A stretch of DNA of 64,000 bases, taken from NCBI GenBank assembly GCA_003213495.1, contig QCMW01000001.1, forward strand, positions 124,001 through 188,000, written 5' to 3'. Each line of letters opens with the position of its first letter. Position 1 is the first letter of the stretch. The notes under the pieces were generated by a model. That model saw nothing but the letters and a program-made list of their open reading frames with translations, was not told the DNA's origin and did not search any database. The DNA is from SAR86 cluster bacterium AG-422-O05 (lineage in GTDB: Bacteria > Pseudomonadota > Gammaproteobacteria > Magnimaribacterales > D2472). Position numbers and translations under genes: made by a program. Shown one piece after another: positions 25,321 through 32,277 of this stretch.

Positions 25321-26370
25321 TTAAATTCTCTTAAAAGATAAAAAAGACATCAATAAAAACATCAAAGAAGGTAAGATTACGCCAATATAAGTTGGTAATT
25401 GATAGGAAATAAAGATTCCAATAGATAAATCTTGAAACAATTTATAAATAAAAGCTCCCGTTACTGCGATTAAAACTCTTCCACCAACACTAGAATCACG
25501 TAATGAATTAAAAGTTAGTGACCCAAAAAACATTATTAGCAACAAAATTGATACTGGTGAATATATTTTTTTATATAGCGCTTTGTCTAAATGTGATTTA
25601 AATAAGATATCTTGTTCAATAGAGCTATTTGAAAGAAAGTTTCTATAATCAATAAGATCTGATATTCCTAAATTATCAATGTGCTTGATTGAAATAGTTG
25701 ATTGGATTGGGATTTCAAAAGTCTCTTGATTAGAAACAGACGACTCTGCATATAGCTTATATAAAGATTCCTCAGGAAAAATAATATTTTTTTTATTAAT
25801 TTGAGCAGCGCTAGCGGAAATTGAGTACTCAAGTTTTTTATTTTTTATTTTAATAAATCTTGGCTGATAGATATTATTATCAATGATTCTTTCAAAGCCT
25901 AAAAACGACTCATCATAATTTACCCATATTTGATCCTGGTCTTTTTGATAGGTCTTTCCTAGAGTAATATTTCTTTCTACCTCGGCTTTTACAAAAGTTT
26001 TTCTAAACACTATTTCATCAAACATTAATAAAGATGCACTTAAGATTAATGCGCCAATCGAACTAACAAAAACAATATTCATTGGAGACTTCCCAGCTGT
26101 CCTTAAAGTATTAAGATTGCCTTCCTGATTGGAAAGTCCTAATGCAATCATGACACCCAAAAGACTAGCGCCCTCTACAAAATCCATCAAACGATGCGGG
26201 GTAGTAAGAATTACATATTTTAATATATTTAAAAATGCATATTTTTCTGAAAGGTTTTCTAACTCTGAGAGAAACATAAAGATTGAATCTAACAAACTAA
26301 AAGCAGCCAAAATGAGTAATGAAAAATAAAAAGAACGCTTTATTAAATATATATAGAATATTTTCATCAT
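25321..26370 (-). CDS. lptG: LPS export permease LptG
   Basis: Transmembrane subunit of the LptB2FG ABC transporter that extracts LPS from the inner membrane. I start at ATG 26370, which overlaps the lptF stop as ATGA (349 residues). The architecture is the YjgP/YjgQ one: TM helices near the N-terminus (about 10-30 and 50-75) and TM at about 92-115. A periplasmic beta-jellyroll follows (about 120-255), then three C-terminal helices. The segment NTLRTAGKSPMNIVF matches the conserved coupling-helix region. The order lptF-lptG divergent from pepA is as in E. coli. Confidence 0.88.
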   Translation of the reverse strand: MMKIFYIYLIKRSFYFSLLILAAFSLLDSIFMFLSELENLSEKYAFLNILKYVILTTPHRLMDFVEGASLLGVMIALGLSNQEGNLNTLRTAGKSPMNIVFVSSIGALILSASLLMFDEIVFRKTFVKAEVERNITLGKTYQKDQDQIWVNYDESFLGFERIIDNNIYQPRFIKIKNKKLEYSISASAAQINKKNIIFPEESLYKLYAESSVSNQETFEIPIQSTISIKHIDNLGISDLIDYRNFLSNSSIEQDILFKSHLDKALYKKIYSPVSILLLIMFFGSLTFNSLRDSSVGGRVLIAVTGAFIYKLFQDLSIGIFISYQLPTYIGVILPSLMFLLMSFLSFKRI

Positions 26371-27512
26371 GAAGCTATCCATAAAAATATTAACAATATG
26401 ATTAGCAATAAGATTGCTCTGGATGAATTACTTTTTCTTATGATGCTGGTAGCATTTATTGAAATATTTATATTCAAATTTGATCTAAGCATTGCATAAA
26501 CTCCAAAAGCAAAAAAGAATGTATGCACATACCATGAATAAAAGTAAGTTTGGGGATTGTTATCCTCAAAAGATTCTCTTGCTAAGATTAATAAACTTAA
26601 GTAGAGGAAGTATACAAACATAGAAGGAAGCAATACTGCTAGTCTGCCTTGTCTAGGACCTACCTTTGAAATGTGTACTCCAATAATTAGCAAAATAAAA
26701 ATTGTTATTGGTATAGAAATATTCCATTGCTTTTGAGATTTACTAGATTTTTCTGAATAATCAAATACTTTAGAGAGAGTTTGTATATCCGATTGTTCTT
26801 TATCTTTTTTTAGTGGAAAATTAAATTCACCAAACTCAGATATAAAAGAAGAGTCTTCACTAAAAATGTTTTGATAAACCAAGCCATCTTTGAGAGTAAG
26901 ATCTAGCATTGAGTCTTTATCACTTGAGGTTAGTTTATCTGCTAGAACTAACGAAAAGTTTTCATTTGATGATGATAAAAATGCAACCTGATCCAAAATA
27001 TTTTTATTCTTATCCTTTACGAAAATAAATCCTTCAAAATCGTTAAATATAATTATTTCATTAGGCTTTATTGCATTGAACTGTTCTTCTAAAGAATCAG
27101 TAGATAAAAGATTCTTAGAAAGCTCTTTTGTATATGGGGCTATGTAAACACTTAATGAAAGAGTTATTAAGAAATATATTATTGCTTGTGGTATCAGATA
27201 TTTTATCAAATCGTTTTGAGAAAGGTTGCCAGTGAAGTAGCCATAAATTTCTCTATCGGCATACATTCTGCTAATTGTGATTACAACCCCTAAAAAGAAA
27301 GACAAAGGAATTAACAGTGTGATGAAATCTGGAAATCTTAAAAAAACAACTTTAAAAATTATGTTTGGATCAATTAGCCCTTCTGCAGCCTGATTAAAAT
27401 ATTCAACAAATCTCGAGCTTACAACTAAAAAAAAGAAAATTAATAGAATTCCGATCGTAGATTTAAAGACCTCAACATTCAAACTTTTTGAAAGAATATT
27501 TTTTTTAAACAT
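26367..27512 (-). CDS. lptF: LPS export permease LptF
   Basis: Partner of LptG in the LPS-extracting ABC transporter. I choose the ATG at 27512 (MFKKNILSKSLNVEVFKSTI, 381 residues) because it gives the short basic N-terminus followed by TM1 seen in the family. The frame is open further upstream (in-frame ATGs at 27533 and 27563), and the ribosome binding site does not decide. It has the YjgP/YjgQ fold: three N-terminal TM helices, a periplasmic jellyroll domain (about 130-265) and three C-terminal TM helices. The conserved ADREIYGYFTGNLSQNDLIK precedes TM3. It diverges from pepA. Confidence 0.88.
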   Translation of the reverse strand: MFKKNILSKSLNVEVFKSTIGILLIFFFLVVSSRFVEYFNQAAEGLIDPNIIFKVVFLRFPDFITLLIPLSFFLGVVITISRMYADREIYGYFTGNLSQNDLIKYLIPQAIIYFLITLSLSVYIAPYTKELSKNLLSTDSLEEQFNAIKPNEIIIFNDFEGFIFVKDKNKNILDQVAFLSSSNENFSLVLADKLTSSDKDSMLDLTLKDGLVYQNIFSEDSSFISEFGEFNFPLKKDKEQSDIQTLSKVFDYSEKSSKSQKQWNISIPITIFILLIIGVHISKVGPRQGRLAVLLPSMFVYFLYLSLLILARESFEDNNPQTYFYSWYVHTFFFAFGVYAMLRSNLNINISINATSIIRKSNSSRAILLLIILLIFLWIAS

Positions 27513-27578
27513 GCCTTGTGAAGAATGATGCATTACAATATTTATCTTATCAGCAAATACCATTACAGGAGAATATAA

Positions 27579-29090
27579 ATGGCACATAAAGTTTTAAATA
27601 ATGTTCAGTTAAAAGACGCAACAGGTGTATCTTCCTTGACGACAGATATGCTTGTTTTAGTTATTAATAAAAATACAAAAAATGACTCGTCTTTCATGGA
27701 ATTAAATAAAAAATCAAAGAATTATCTTTCTAAAACTATTAAATCCCATGTAGATCAACCAGGCAGTAGCTTATTGCTTCCAAAAATAGATGGAATTAAT
27801 GCCAAGCATATTTTTCTTGTTAAAGGTCTTGATACAGATGCGCCGACTCATAAATGGCTCAGTTTGTACCAAAGCATTGCACAAAAAGGAAATCAAAATA
27901 AATGTAAAGATATATCTGTTATGCCTGGAACAGTTTCGCCTAAAGGAAAAGATGAACTTTGGTTAATTGAGATGGTTTCTAAAACAATTGAGTCTAATGT
28001 TTATATATTTTCTGAAACAAAAAATAAAACTTCTAAGAAACCCAGCGTTAAAAAACTAACTATCCTTACAACAGGTTTAACTGGATCTAAATTAACAAAA
28101 GCTAAACAAGCTGCAAAGGTTGGATATGCTATTGGTGAGGGAGTAAATACGGCAAAATACTTGGGGGATCTTCCAGCCAATCATTGCACGCCAAAAATAA
28201 TTGAAAAAAAGGTAAAAGCAATGACAAAAGATTTTCCTAAGCTAAAAGTTAAATCTTTTAACGAAAAGCAAATGCATAAAATGGGCATGGGTTCATTTTT
28301 AAGTGTTTCTAGGGGTAGTGAAGAACCAGCTAGAATGATGGTTATCGAATACAAGGGAGGCAAATCAACTGATAAACCTATTGCATTAGTTGGCAAAGGC
28401 GTTACTTTCGATACTGGAGGAGTTTCAATCAAACCAAGTCCTGGAATGGATGAGATGAAATGGGATATGTGCGGAGCTGCAACTGTGTTTGGAGTCATGT
28501 CTACCCTAGCAAGATTAAATGCAGATGTTAATGTAGTTGGTGTTATGGGTTGCGCTGAAAATATGTGCTCATCTAAAGCCACAAAACCTGGTGATGTTGT
28601 AACTTCAATGTCTGGTCAGACCATTGAAATACTTAATACTGATGCTGAAGGCAGATTGATTCTTGCCGATTGTTTAACATACGTTGGAAAATATAAGCCT
28701 TCGTATGTTATTGATATGGCAACACTAACCGGAGCTGTTGTCATTGCTCTTGGGAGACATGCAAGTGGAGTTATGGCAAATGATCAGTATCTTGCAGATA
28801 AAATAATTGAATCCGGTGAAGAATCAGGTGATAGAGCTTGGCAACTTCCATTATGGGATGAGCATCAATCATGTACTAAAACTAAATATGCAGATTTAGC
28901 GAATATTGGTGGGGGAAGAGAAGCTGGAACAATTCATGCAGCTGCTTTCCTTTCAAAATTTACTAATGATTATAAATGGGCACATATTGATATTGCTGCT
29001 ACAGCCTCTTATAGCACTCCTGTAAAAGCTGGAACTGGAAGACCTGTGCCACTTATAAGTCAGCTAATTCTAAGTAAGAAATTAAAATAG
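27579..29090 (+). CDS. pepA: Leucyl aminopeptidase (cytosol aminopeptidase, M17)
   Basis: Hexameric di-zinc exopeptidase releasing N-terminal residues. The 503 residues have a variable N-terminal domain and a catalytic C-terminal domain with KGVTFDTGGVSIKP, the DMCGAATV loop and the signature NTDAEGRLIL. The ATG at 27579 follows a clear AGGAG ribosome binding site, so unlike several neighbours it has a normal leader. In E. coli PepA also binds DNA to regulate carAB; that role cannot be judged here. It is followed closely by valS, with no holC between. Confidence 0.96.
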   Translation: MAHKVLNNVQLKDATGVSSLTTDMLVLVINKNTKNDSSFMELNKKSKNYLSKTIKSHVDQPGSSLLLPKIDGINAKHIFLVKGLDTDAPTHKWLSLYQSIAQKGNQNKCKDISVMPGTVSPKGKDELWLIEMVSKTIESNVYIFSETKNKTSKKPSVKKLTILTTGLTGSKLTKAKQAAKVGYAIGEGVNTAKYLGDLPANHCTPKIIEKKVKAMTKDFPKLKVKSFNEKQMHKMGMGSFLSVSRGSEEPARMMVIEYKGGKSTDKPIALVGKGVTFDTGGVSIKPSPGMDEMKWDMCGAATVFGVMSTLARLNADVNVVGVMGCAENMCSSKATKPGDVVTSMSGQTIEILNTDAEGRLILADCLTYVGKYKPSYVIDMATLTGAVVIALGRHASGVMANDQYLADKIIESGEESGDRAWQLPLWDEHQSCTKTKYADLANIGGGREAGTIHAAAFLSKFTNDYKWAHIDIAATASYSTPVKAGTGRPVPLISQLILSKKLK

Positions 29091-29107
29091 TTTGATGAAA
29101 CTTTCTT

Positions 29108-31324
29108 ATGGATAAACAGTATTACCCAGTAGAAATTGAAGAAAAATGGTCCAAGATCTGGTCTGAAAAAGTTCTTTCAAATAAAGATTCTGATGCTTCA
29201 TTTTCTCAGGTAATACCTCCACCAAATGTTACTGGTACTCTTCATATGGGCCATAGCTTCCAGTATGCCATCATGGACTTCTATACAAGATATCATCATA
29301 TGTCTGGCAAAGATGCGCACTGGCAGGTTGGTGCTGATCATGCCGGCATAGCTACGCAAATGGTTGTAGAAAATAATCTTGCAAAAAAAGATGTAACCAG
29401 GAAAGAACTCGGAAGAGAAAAATTTCTTGAAGAAGTTTGGTCTTGGAAAGATTATTCAGAAGAAAAAATAACTTCACAAATTAAAAGACTTGGATGCTCT
29501 GTTGATTGGAATAAATATAGATTTACCCTAGATGAAGGATGCAATGATGCTGTTATAAAAGCATTCGTTGAATTGCATAGAAGAAATAAAATCTATAGGG
29601 GTTATAGGTTGGTTAATTGGGATCCATCCCTAAAAACTGCTGTTTCAGATCTTGAGGTTGTAAGACAAGAAAAAGATGGCCTTCTTTGGCATATTAAATA
29701 TCCAATTGAAAATACAGAAGATTTTTTAATAGTGGCTACAACTCGACCTGAAACTATGTTTGGAGATATGGCAGTTGCTGTTAACCCTAATGATGATAGG
29801 TATAAAGATTTTGTTGGTAAAAAAGTAGTTCTTCCCTTTGTGGGCAGAAAGATACCAGTTTTAGCCGATGAGTATGTTGATGCGGAATTTGGAACCGGTT
29901 GTCTTAAAATTACTCCAGGTCATGATTTTAATGATTACGAAATAGGTAAAAAATATGCACTGCACGAGGTAGATGGTCAAGTAAAGACTTCAAATACAGT
30001 AAGTGACTTTGAGCCTATAAATATATTTAATGAAGATGCATGTTCGAATGAAAATGTGCCAGAACCATTTTCAAATCTTGATCGTTTTAAAGTCAGAAAA
30101 GCTGTATTAGAAAAACTTAAGGAGCTAGATCTCTTGGAAAAAGAAGAAAAGCACCATATAAGTGTACCTCGTGGTGAGAGGTCTAATATAGTTATTGAAC
30201 CTAAATTAAGTTATCAATGGTATGTCAAAACTGAAGAAATGGCGGCAAGAGCAAACGAAGCTGTTAACAAAGGAGAAATAATATTTCATCCAAACAATTG
30301 GCTTAAGACATATTTTAATTGGATGGATAATATTGAGGATTGGTGTATCAGCAGGCAGATATGGTGGGGCCACAGAATACCTGCGTGGTATGACTCTGAT
30401 GATAATGTCTACGTTGGTTATAGTGAAGAGGAAGTCAGAGAATTTTATAAACTTGATGGCAGAGAACTCATACAAGATGAAGATGTTCTAGATACTTGGT
30501 TCTCATCAAGTCTATGGCCTTTTGCATCATTAGGATGGCCTAAAAAAACTGAAGATTTTAAGAGGCATTTTCCAACCTCTCTTCTCGTTACTGGATTTGA
30601 TATTATATTTTTCTGGGTTGCAAGAATGATGATGATGAGTCTTGAGTTTACAGATCTAATCCCTTTTAAAGACGTCTATGTTACTGGCCTCATTAGAGAC
30701 GAGAATGGACAAAAAATGTCAAAATCTAAAGGTAACGTTATTGACCCATTGGATTTGATTTATGGTATCTCCCAAGATGATTTAGTTGAAAAAAGAACTA
30801 CAAATCTTATGCAAGAAGGTATAGCAAAAAAAATTGAGAATAAAACAAGGAATCAATTTCCAAAAGGTATTGATTCATACGGAACAGATGCTTTAAGAAT
30901 GACATTTTATTCACTTGCAACGCATACCAAAGACATAAGCTTTGAAATGGGTAGACTTAAAGGGTATAGAAATTTTTGTACTAAAGTCTGGAATGCAGCA
31001 AGATTTATTAACGGATATCCAGCTGGAAATGGCAAATTCCAATCAACAAATAAAACTGATGAGTGGATATATGAAGAATTTGAAAATTCAAAAAAGCAAA
31101 TCGAAAAAAATATCAAAGACTATAGATTGGATTATGCTATTAATGAAGTTTATGAGTTCTTCTGGAACAAGTTTTGCGACGTCTATATCGAAGAATGTAA
31201 AAAAAGTGGAGAGACAGATAATCTAAGACCTCTGTTAAAAGAAATACTAATTATGATGCATCCTTTTGCTCCATTCATTACTGAAGAAATTCATAGTTTA
31301 TTGTTTGATAGTCCAATTATTTAA
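29108..31324 (+). CDS. valS: Valyl-tRNA synthetase, C-terminally truncated
   Basis: Charges tRNA-Val. The 738 residues include HMGH (46-49, the HIGH motif), the CP1 editing domain with TTRPETMFGD (211-220), WCISRQIWWGHRIPAW and KMSKS (536-540), so catalysis and editing look intact. The protein stops in the anticodon-binding domain just after MMHPFAPFITEEIHSLLF. E. coli ValRS (951 residues) continues for roughly 170-200 more residues, completing that domain and adding the C-terminal coiled coil that holds the tRNA. The next gene starts 12 bp later, so no remnant frame follows. This is either a natural compact form or a deletion or assembly fault. No clear ribosome binding site is visible; it is probably co-transcribed with pepA. 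Confidence 0.93.
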   Translation: MDKQYYPVEIEEKWSKIWSEKVLSNKDSDASFSQVIPPPNVTGTLHMGHSFQYAIMDFYTRYHHMSGKDAHWQVGADHAGIATQMVVENNLAKKDVTRKELGREKFLEEVWSWKDYSEEKITSQIKRLGCSVDWNKYRFTLDEGCNDAVIKAFVELHRRNKIYRGYRLVNWDPSLKTAVSDLEVVRQEKDGLLWHIKYPIENTEDFLIVATTRPETMFGDMAVAVNPNDDRYKDFVGKKVVLPFVGRKIPVLADEYVDAEFGTGCLKITPGHDFNDYEIGKKYALHEVDGQVKTSNTVSDFEPINIFNEDACSNENVPEPFSNLDRFKVRKAVLEKLKELDLLEKEEKHHISVPRGERSNIVIEPKLSYQWYVKTEEMAARANEAVNKGEIIFHPNNWLKTYFNWMDNIEDWCISRQIWWGHRIPAWYDSDDNVYVGYSEEEVREFYKLDGRELIQDEDVLDTWFSSSLWPFASLGWPKKTEDFKRHFPTSLLVTGFDIIFFWVARMMMMSLEFTDLIPFKDVYVTGLIRDENGQKMSKSKGNVIDPLDLIYGISQDDLVEKRTTNLMQEGIAKKIENKTRNQFPKGIDSYGTDALRMTFYSLATHTKDISFEMGRLKGYRNFCTKVWNAARFINGYPAGNGKFQSTNKTDEWIYEEFENSKKQIEKNIKDYRLDYAINEVYEFFWNKFCDVYIEECKKSGETDNLRPLLKEILIMMHPFAPFITEEIHSLLFDSPII

Positions 31325-31335
31325 TTATTAATGTA

Positions 31336-32277
31336 ATGGCCTTACTTAAGAATGGTTTATTTAATACTCTTGTGGCATCAAGCCCAATTAGAGAAATACA
31401 GCAAAAACCTTTACGTAAAAAACTAAATAGAATTACTTCCAAACAAATTTTCACATCTTCTAACTCTCAGTCAATCGAAATATTTGAAACAAATTTGTAT
31501 AAAAAGAAGGTAATATTTTTTCCAGGCTGGTTGGGTCACAAAGATTCAAAATATTTAATCCCTTTAGCTGATCTTTTGCACATCAATAATTTTGATATTA
31601 TAAGAATTCATCCTGTAGATCATGGTGATACAGAGCATTTAAACAAAGATTTTTTTAGAGCTACTGATATTCAAACTCTAATTGAAGCAGTAGAGTTTAT
31701 TGGCAAAAAATATCAAAACAACGAAATACACTTAATTGGTTTTTCTCTTGGAGGCAATATCGCATTGAGAATATCTGCTTGCGAATCAATCAATTTTTTA
31801 AAAAGTACTGTTGTGATTTCTCCTGTAATCGATCCAGAGATTTCTATGCATGCTATGGACAATACTTCATGGATTTTAAAAAAATATTTTGTTAATAAGT
31901 GGCGCAGAACTTTAAGAAGAAAAATGAGATTACATAATATTTCTAATGTGGAGGAATCGTTTAGGTACAAAGATCTTGAGAAAATGACAGAATTTTTTAC
32001 AAAAAACTTTTCACCACATAAGAATGTCAAAGAGCTTTTTGCTGGATACGCTATAACTCAAGATACTATTAATCAGATAAAAAATAACACACTAATATAT
32101 TCATCTGTTGACGATCCCTGTGTTCCTATAAAACCTCTTTACAGTCTAGATCAAACTAATAATGTTAAATTCAAACCTCAACAGTATGGTGGACATTGTG
32201 GTTTTATAGATGATTTCAAGTTTAACTCTTCTGTATATGAAGAAATAGTTAATAAACTTAGCGAAAATAAAAGCTAA
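31336..32277 (+). CDS. YheT-like alpha/beta hydrolase
   Basis: Predicted serine hydrolase of the YheT group; the substrate is unknown. In its 313 residues the nucleophile elbow is GFSLGGN with the serine near 137, the acid is in SSVDDPCVP (about 258) and the histidine in YGGHCGF (about 287), completing the triad. The oxyanion strand FFPGWLGHKDSKYL precedes. The N-terminal NGLFNTL resembles the start of YheT proteins, which argues that the frame is complete and not fused to valS. It lies 11 bp after valS and may be co-transcribed with it. Confidence 0.8.
   Translation: MALLKNGLFNTLVASSPIREIQQKPLRKKLNRITSKQIFTSSNSQSIEIFETNLYKKKVIFFPGWLGHKDSKYLIPLADLLHINNFDIIRIHPVDHGDTEHLNKDFFRATDIQTLIEAVEFIGKKYQNNEIHLIGFSLGGNIALRISACESINFLKSTVVISPVIDPEISMHAMDNTSWILKKYFVNKWRRTLRRKMRLHNISNVEESFRYKDLEKMTEFFTKNFSPHKNVKELFAGYAITQDTINQIKNNTLIYSSVDDPCVPIKPLYSLDQTNNVKFKPQQYGGHCGFIDDFKFNSSVYEEIVNKLSENKS

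Follow-up and report, generated by a model that had tools for sequence, protein, structure and literature searches.

The window analysed here is a stretch of 64,000 nucleotides from SAR86 cluster bacterium AG-422-O05 (contig QCMW01000001.1, positions 124,001 to 188,000 of the forward strand). Its main subject is valS, the predicted gene of a valyl-tRNA synthetase (ValRS) that ends within its anticodon-binding domain. Related genomes carry either this short form or a full-length form, and the occurrence of the short form coincides with a longer D-loop in tRNA-Val(UAC). The gene comprises the following features, given in window coordinates.

29108..31324, plus strand: valS, truncated valyl-tRNA synthetase of 738 amino acids (open reading frame call and family profiles)
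29243..29254, plus strand: HMGH catalytic signature, residues 46-49 (translation and 47-sequence alignment)
29678..30151, plus strand: CP1 editing domain, residues 191-348 (match to the solved ValRS chains 1wka/1wk9)
30713..30727, plus strand: KMSKS signature, residues 536-540 (translation and 47-sequence alignment)
30947..31303, plus strand: remaining anticodon-binding helix bundle, residues 614-732 (AlphaFold2 model; PF08264 positions 1-87 of 148)
31304..31324, plus strand: end of the short form and stop codon; full-length SAR86 relatives extend about 170 residues further (alignments; 1gax match ends at residue 700 of 862)

The 738-residue protein scores 1001.2 bits with NF004349.1 (curated cut-off 704) and 899.4 bits with TIGR00422.1 (curated cut-off 612.1). 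In the 47-sequence alignment, H46, G48 and H49 of the first signature are invariant and M47 is nearly so, and K536, M537, S538 and K539 of the second are invariant. Residues 191-348 match 1wka and 1wk9, which we take to be the ValRS editing domain in isolation (E about 2e-28), and both the core synthetase domain and the editing domain are present in full. With the metG profile of methionyl-tRNA synthetase (MetRS), the protein scores 75 bits against a cut-off of 336.35, outside that family. By family score, motifs and CP1 domain the product is a ValRS, and charging of tRNA-Val is predicted from its sequence. An earlier note, made from the DNA letters alone, had described a 738-residue ValRS with HMGH, editing domain and KMSKS, which translation, alignment and the match to 1wka/1wk9 bear out. 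It was also right that the next gene lies close downstream, but the stop codon occupies 31322-31324, so that valS ends at 31324 and not at 31336, and the spacer to the following gene measures 11 bases rather than 12. In the window genome (1.28 Mb in two contigs, 96.67% complete) no second or long valS was found, and the 738-residue enzyme is the sole ValRS located. By this ValRS the window belongs to SAR86: among the ten named records more than 65% identical to it, eight have SAR86 in their titles, while one is labelled Gammaproteobacteria and one Flavobacteriaceae.

In the window ValRS, Anticodon_1 (PF08264) is matched over positions 1-87 of 148 only and PF10458, the tRNA-binding arm, is not matched, whereas a full-length SAR86 ValRS taken as control matches Anticodon_1 over positions 3-147 and PF10458 with 48.5 bits. 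Both hallmarks of canonical ValRS architecture, a complete anticodon-binding domain and a C-terminal coiled-coil arm, are missing. Long SAR86 forms continue for 167-174 residues past the last aligned column of the short form (17/17 sequences), in line with the roughly 170-200 missing residues of the earlier note, and its placing of the stop within the anticodon-binding domain, with the coiled coil absent, agrees with the domain matches. The C-terminal arm of ValRS is usually regarded as part of tRNA binding, and in the Thermus complex the coiled coil reportedly packs on the outer corner of the tRNA, where the D and T loops meet.

An AlphaFold2 model, computed from 47 aligned sequences (that of the window and those of related loci), has a mean predicted local distance difference test score (pLDDT) of 89.6 and a predicted template modelling score (pTM) of 0.84. 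Its residual anticodon domain consists of five helices (residues 614-635, 649-670, 674-700, 706-717 and 722-732), with pLDDT of 89-98 in ten-residue blocks of the domain and 81 in the final block of the protein. The model aligns with Thermus thermophilus ValRS (1gax) over 674 residues (Z 37.2, root-mean-square deviation 2.6, 40% identity), up to chain residue 700 of 862, and many MetRS chains align with it nearly to their ends (for example, 1a8h to residue 473 of 500). By these two kinds of match, the modelled short form resembles a ValRS in its catalytic and editing parts and MetRS in its minimal anticodon bundle. The likeness to MetRS is limited to where the anticodon domain ends.

We next describe how the short and long forms are distributed over SAR86, whose families and genera are denoted f1-f4 and g1-g10 below. 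For family f1, that of the window genome, the sample held 107 genomes (200 were requested, so these are presumably all in the collection searched), and 95 of them had a ValRS match at E <= 1e-80. The protein ends at the same point as in the window in 63, is long in 24 and is cut or broken before its end in eight; the 12 genomes without a match are all only 58-85% complete. The alignment with sister genomes proposed in the earlier note thus returns the short end in 63 of the 107. Seven of the ten f1 genera (g1, g2, g3, g4, g6, g8 and g9) are short wherever the end is visible and two (g5 and g10) are long, while g7 holds six long genomes and a single short one, G082, which is SAR86 isolate D2474-A1-1 with a complete chromosome (CP097973.1; the valS coordinates agree). 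In an order-level sample of 199 genomes, 17/17 matched genomes of family f4 are short, 16 with full matches and one (G109) split over contigs with its C-terminal piece seen separately. Among the matches listed for f2 and f3, the open frames span 859-952 codons in 45/45, one of which (G202) contains an internal stop. Outside SAR86, no certain short ValRS was found among 135 matched of 141 sampled genomes of the class; the suspiciously short frames of G311 and G317 run into contig ends, and other matches cut before their end are uninformative.

Two records in these samples stand apart. The valS match of a g6 genome (G077:C1:531214-532521) has five in-frame stops (three TGA, one TAG and one TAA) between residues 92 and 526, probably a matter of poor sequence in a genome that is 59% complete. 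A contig titled uncultured Flavobacteriaceae (CAJVZM010000096.1) encodes a short SAR86 ValRS with 76% identity to that of the window and an f4-like ending, and is probably misbinned.

The short ValRS proteins compared all form one clade, with a support of 100 by the SH-like approximate likelihood ratio test (SH-aLRT) in a tree of 69 rows and of 100/100 in a more careful tree of 31 rows, in which the stem of the clade measures about 0.95 changes per site and lies inside SAR86. The species relationships, represented by an RpoB tree of 28 of the 30 genomes (G112, with no rpoB match, and G045, with rpoB split over two contigs, were left out), are different: f1, f4 and f2+f3 each receive 100/100, and G082 groups with its long-ValRS g7 sisters (100/99). 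On valS, the approximately unbiased (AU) test rejects both a single f1 clade (p 3e-67) and a grouping of g7 with G082 (p 6e-7). Identities tell the same story, since f4 proteins are 74-76% identical to those of the window for ValRS, 64% for RpoB and 47-49% for leucyl aminopeptidase (PepA), and G082 and its sister G081 share 84.8% in RpoB and 66.8% in PepA but only 53.0% in ValRS. The ValRS of G082 groups with the g3 genome G041 in the first tree (SH-aLRT 87), a placement that the 31-row tree leaves unresolved. The conflict between the trees, together with these identities, indicates that the short valS has travelled from one SAR86 lineage to another and displaced the gene already in place. The pattern is best accounted for if this happened at least twice, once between f1 and f4 and once in G082, a full-length valS being replaced in situ each time. 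A viral carrier of the short gene was considered and rejected, as no relative was found in IMG/VR. As a separate observation, G112 (f4, a single contig, 95% complete) has no rpoB match by TIGR02013, while the other 29 of the 30 genomes do.

The genes around valS mark the locus at which these replacements would have taken place.

27579..29090, plus strand: pepA (leucyl aminopeptidase), conserved upstream neighbour that marks the ancestral valS locus (family profile and locus comparison)
25321..27587, minus strand: lptG and lptF, divergent neighbours (open reading frames and locus comparison; putative names, given by position)
31336..32277, plus strand: alpha/beta hydrolase downstream, no valS continuation (family profiles and tblastn)

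In 23/23 SAR86 loci compared, valS follows pepA, with lptF diverging upstream. An open reading frame of 132-153 amino acids (holC by position) lies between pepA and valS in f2, f3 and f4 and in none of the f1 loci compared; the comparison covered the window gap (29091-29107), which holds no open reading frame, and the loci L085-L124. By gene order, the short forms evidently sit at the ancestral lptF-pepA-(holC)-valS locus.

The tRNA-Val(UAC) gene differs between the two groups. Its D-loop has 9 bases in 21/21 short-ValRS genomes read (12 of f1, including G082, and nine of f4) and 8 bases in 13/13 long-ValRS genomes read (seven of f1, two of f2 and four of f3). The count covers 34 genomes, with G106 and G118 entered from contig-edge fragments; outside it stand G149, where a pattern match was not accepted by ARAGORN, and G184, G121, G058, G072, G074 and G076, in which no UAC gene was located. 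The extra base lies on opposite sides of the GG pair in f1 and f4. As a control, tRNA lengths were compared across isoacceptors in five genomes, three short (the window genome, G039 and G082) and two long (G081 and G066); 28 of 32 tRNA classes occur in every one of them, and among these Val(UAC) is the sole class whose length tells short genomes from long ones. The Val(UAC) gene of G082 has the same sequence as in two g3 genomes, and three positions distinguish it from its g7 sisters. Of the 29 classes that can be compared with G039, no other has G082 matching G039 and differing from G081; Ile(GAU) and Asp(GUC) of G082 are also closer to G039 than to G081, without being identical. The flanks of this gene in G082 are 69-85% identical to g7 and 41-55% to g3. 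The tRNA of G082 thus changed along with the enzyme, either by very local gene conversion or by three matching mutations, and co-adaptation of tRNA-Val(UAC) and the short ValRS appears likely.

We propose, with a probability of roughly 0.75, that the short valS encodes a functional single-chain minimal ValRS that would have arisen by an old truncation, passed between lineages and adopted MetRS-like anticodon reading, with a correlated change in tRNA-Val(UAC). By comparison, the truncation lies directly behind helix five of the anticodon-binding bundle and became fixed in one SAR86 valS lineage. The helix bundle alone would then read the anticodon as in MetRS, the ValRS core and CP1 proofreading being kept, and the coiled-coil clamp on the tRNA elbow would be dispensed with. 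Once the coiled coil is gone the elbow contact would be lost, so that recognition would rest on the acceptor stem, the anticodon and contacts of the catalytic domain; a weaker Michaelis constant is perhaps tolerated by a slow-growing oligotroph. A clamp-free enzyme may fit a larger elbow better, and the longer D-loop occurs, as a correlation only, in just that tRNA-Val whose loop was short before. A lower cost, evasion of an inhibitor or mere chance may lie behind the spread of the short gene. We further speculate, at slightly less than even odds, that the clamp-free enzyme spreads horizontally and that its acceptance needs a change of the recipient tRNA-Val(UAC) D-loop from 8 to 9 bases. If so, synthetase and tRNA elbow would be a co-transferred or co-adapting pair, and SAR86 would offer a recurrent natural test of how tRNA recognition can be rewired.

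Several observations weigh against this proposal. None of the 12 alignment columns that are fixed for another residue in the short forms lies inside the anticodon domain, so there is no obvious compensation there. The lengths of other tRNAs drift too in the five genomes (Asp by up to 3 bases), and no more than three independent events underlie the tRNA correlation. Two further candidate signatures were given up. The tRNA-Val(GAC) D-loop is at least 9 bases long in all genomes read, whichever group they belong to. G20 and G45 are named as minor valine identity elements in PMC9976931, and G20 is lost in the short f1 tRNAs, yet it is also absent from f2 and f3 tRNAs that serve a long ValRS, for which reason its loss was dropped as a shared tRNA signature. 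In addition, a valS tree with the f1 short forms as one clade without f4 survives the AU test (p 0.19), so that transfer between f1 and f4 may have gone in either direction.

Other explanations must be set beside the proposal of a functional, transferred minimal enzyme. For a ValRS this is an unusual domain boundary, and the same family also contains long forms, as might be expected of an assembly or frameshift artefact or of a decaying gene. However, the same end point recurs in tens of genomes, including four single-contig ones (G082, G086, G112 and G115), and is therefore not due to chance or local sequencing error. The ratio of nonsynonymous to synonymous substitution rates is 0.03-0.14 in 9/9 short pairs (0.12 and 0.08 in two long pairs), by which measure the short valS is under purifying selection. 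This selection, the presence of the short form in seven of ten genera and its single clade argue for evolution and against an artefact, whose probability we put close to nil. Tblastn with 13 long-form C-termini yielded no credible match downstream, in agreement with the earlier note that the gene has no continuation there, and a frameshift or downstream remnant was rejected. The note had named full-length relatives at this locus as a point against a natural short form; such relatives exist (24 genomes of f1), but the clade, the selection and the seven genera leave the short form real, and the natural synthetase reduction that the note envisaged is upheld by the recurrent end point, the selection and the clade. 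A split enzyme, in which the coiled coil or some other tRNA-binding arm is encoded elsewhere and acts in trans, has its models in free-standing or linked elbow binders such as Trbp111 and Arc1p (as described in PMC10485164). Against it, PF10458 finds nothing in the whole window genome at E <= 10, although it is detected in 13 of 14 control genomes (over the cut-off in nine) and in a long SAR86 ValRS. The 13 C-terminal queries, run against the window and the related loci, gave only three weak matches (E 0.15-0.77) among 81 short-form sources, while 10/10 long SAR86 controls checked gave matches. Neither the second valS nor the separate C-terminal fragment that the note had proposed to look for was found, in a set of searches that did not extend to every possible one, such as a whole-genome search with a SAR86-specific C-terminus or the Trbp111/Arc1p families; we consider a split enzyme quite improbable.

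A SAR86 ancestor that held both long and short valS, followed by differential loss, would likewise yield one short clade at odds with the species tree and require no transfer. This scenario predicts a deep divergence between the f1 and f4 short forms, and none is seen: their ValRS identity, above that of RpoB and PepA in the same genomes, is too close for a split as old as the families. Moreover, genomes with two matches (G046, G090, G109 and G160) hold short-type pieces only, and a single locus is used in all SAR86 loci compared, which makes differential loss very improbable. The strongest challenge to the proposed minimal enzyme with its matched tRNA is that truncation and transfer are real, with the D-loop difference a product of chance drift that has nothing to do with the synthetase. 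The drifting lengths of other SAR86 tRNAs and the few independent events speak for such drift, as does the fact that both D-loop lengths are ordinary for tRNAs. It is harder to reconcile with Val(UAC) being alone among the 28 comparable classes in separating short from long, with the agreement of D-loop and enzyme in 34/34 genomes read, and with G082, which has the other form of both tRNA and enzyme in still g7-like tRNA flanks. We regard drift as a sizeable possibility, though one we would bet against. Overall, the observation in the earlier note is confirmed and its interpretation supported, and the horizontal replacement and the tRNA-Val(UAC) change go beyond its view.

Canonical ValRS, as in T. 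thermophilus (1gax/1ivs), shares with the short form the catalytic core, CP1, KMSKS and the beginning of the anticodon bundle. What follows residue 700 of 862 in 1gax, namely the remainder of the anticodon-binding domain and the coiled coil at the C-terminus, has no counterpart in the short form. Solved MetRS chains (for example 1a8h and 2ct8), like the short ValRS, stop at about the end of the helix-bundle anticodon domain, although MetRS serves another amino acid and anticodon and only 409-462 residues align. MetRS is also not known to have a full-size CP1 domain. A structure match to Mycoplasma mobile leucyl-tRNA synthetase (LeuRS; 3ziu, 637 amino acids) offers another class Ia synthetase that is much shorter than its relatives; that enzyme reportedly lacks the editing domain and not a C-terminal tRNA arm. 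The nearest precedent found is the valS of the insect symbiont Candidatus Carsonella ruddii, which is listed without most of its anticodon domain in Table 1 of PMC2175510 and is called degraded there, with functional residues mutated. Compared with the Carsonella gene as so described, the SAR86 short valS has intact motifs, purifying selection and movement between marine lineages, in genomes of 0.7-1.3 Mb as assembled, many of them incomplete. In Caenorhabditis elegans mitochondria, the alanyl-tRNA synthetase has a much reduced C-terminal elbow-binding domain and tRNA-Ala an altered D-loop (PMC10485164); this is a different synthetase with an organellar tRNA that lacks conserved D-loop bases, and the passages on it in that paper describe no transfer between lineages. 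Among the titles and abstract beginnings listed by our searches of the open-licence literature, none reports the SAR86 enzyme. A truncated ValRS is thus already known, and a minimal ValRS that is conserved, mobile and apparently coupled to a tRNA is new within that literature as far as our searches reach.

ValRS is essential, and a marine lineage without the C-terminal arm would show how far the enzyme can be reduced in nature. Sister genomes that have either form at the same locus, with matching tRNAs, would provide natural pairs for testing arm function and co-adaptation, and the replacements would be a case of an essential gene exchanged in place by transfer, the incoming version being the smaller.

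A further observation concerns the tRNA-Val(GAC) gene of the window genome, which lies outside the window (G000:C1:901116-901189; L225:1498-1574, minus strand). It has C33 instead of the usual U33, a feature unique to it among the five genomes checked, and its nearest other tRNA in that set is the tRNA-Arg(ACG) of the same genome, at 17 differences, and not the Val(GAC) of sister genera. It may have been remodelled from an Arg tRNA. Among the matches listed, its TCGACAC loop is also present in G001, G026 and G034.

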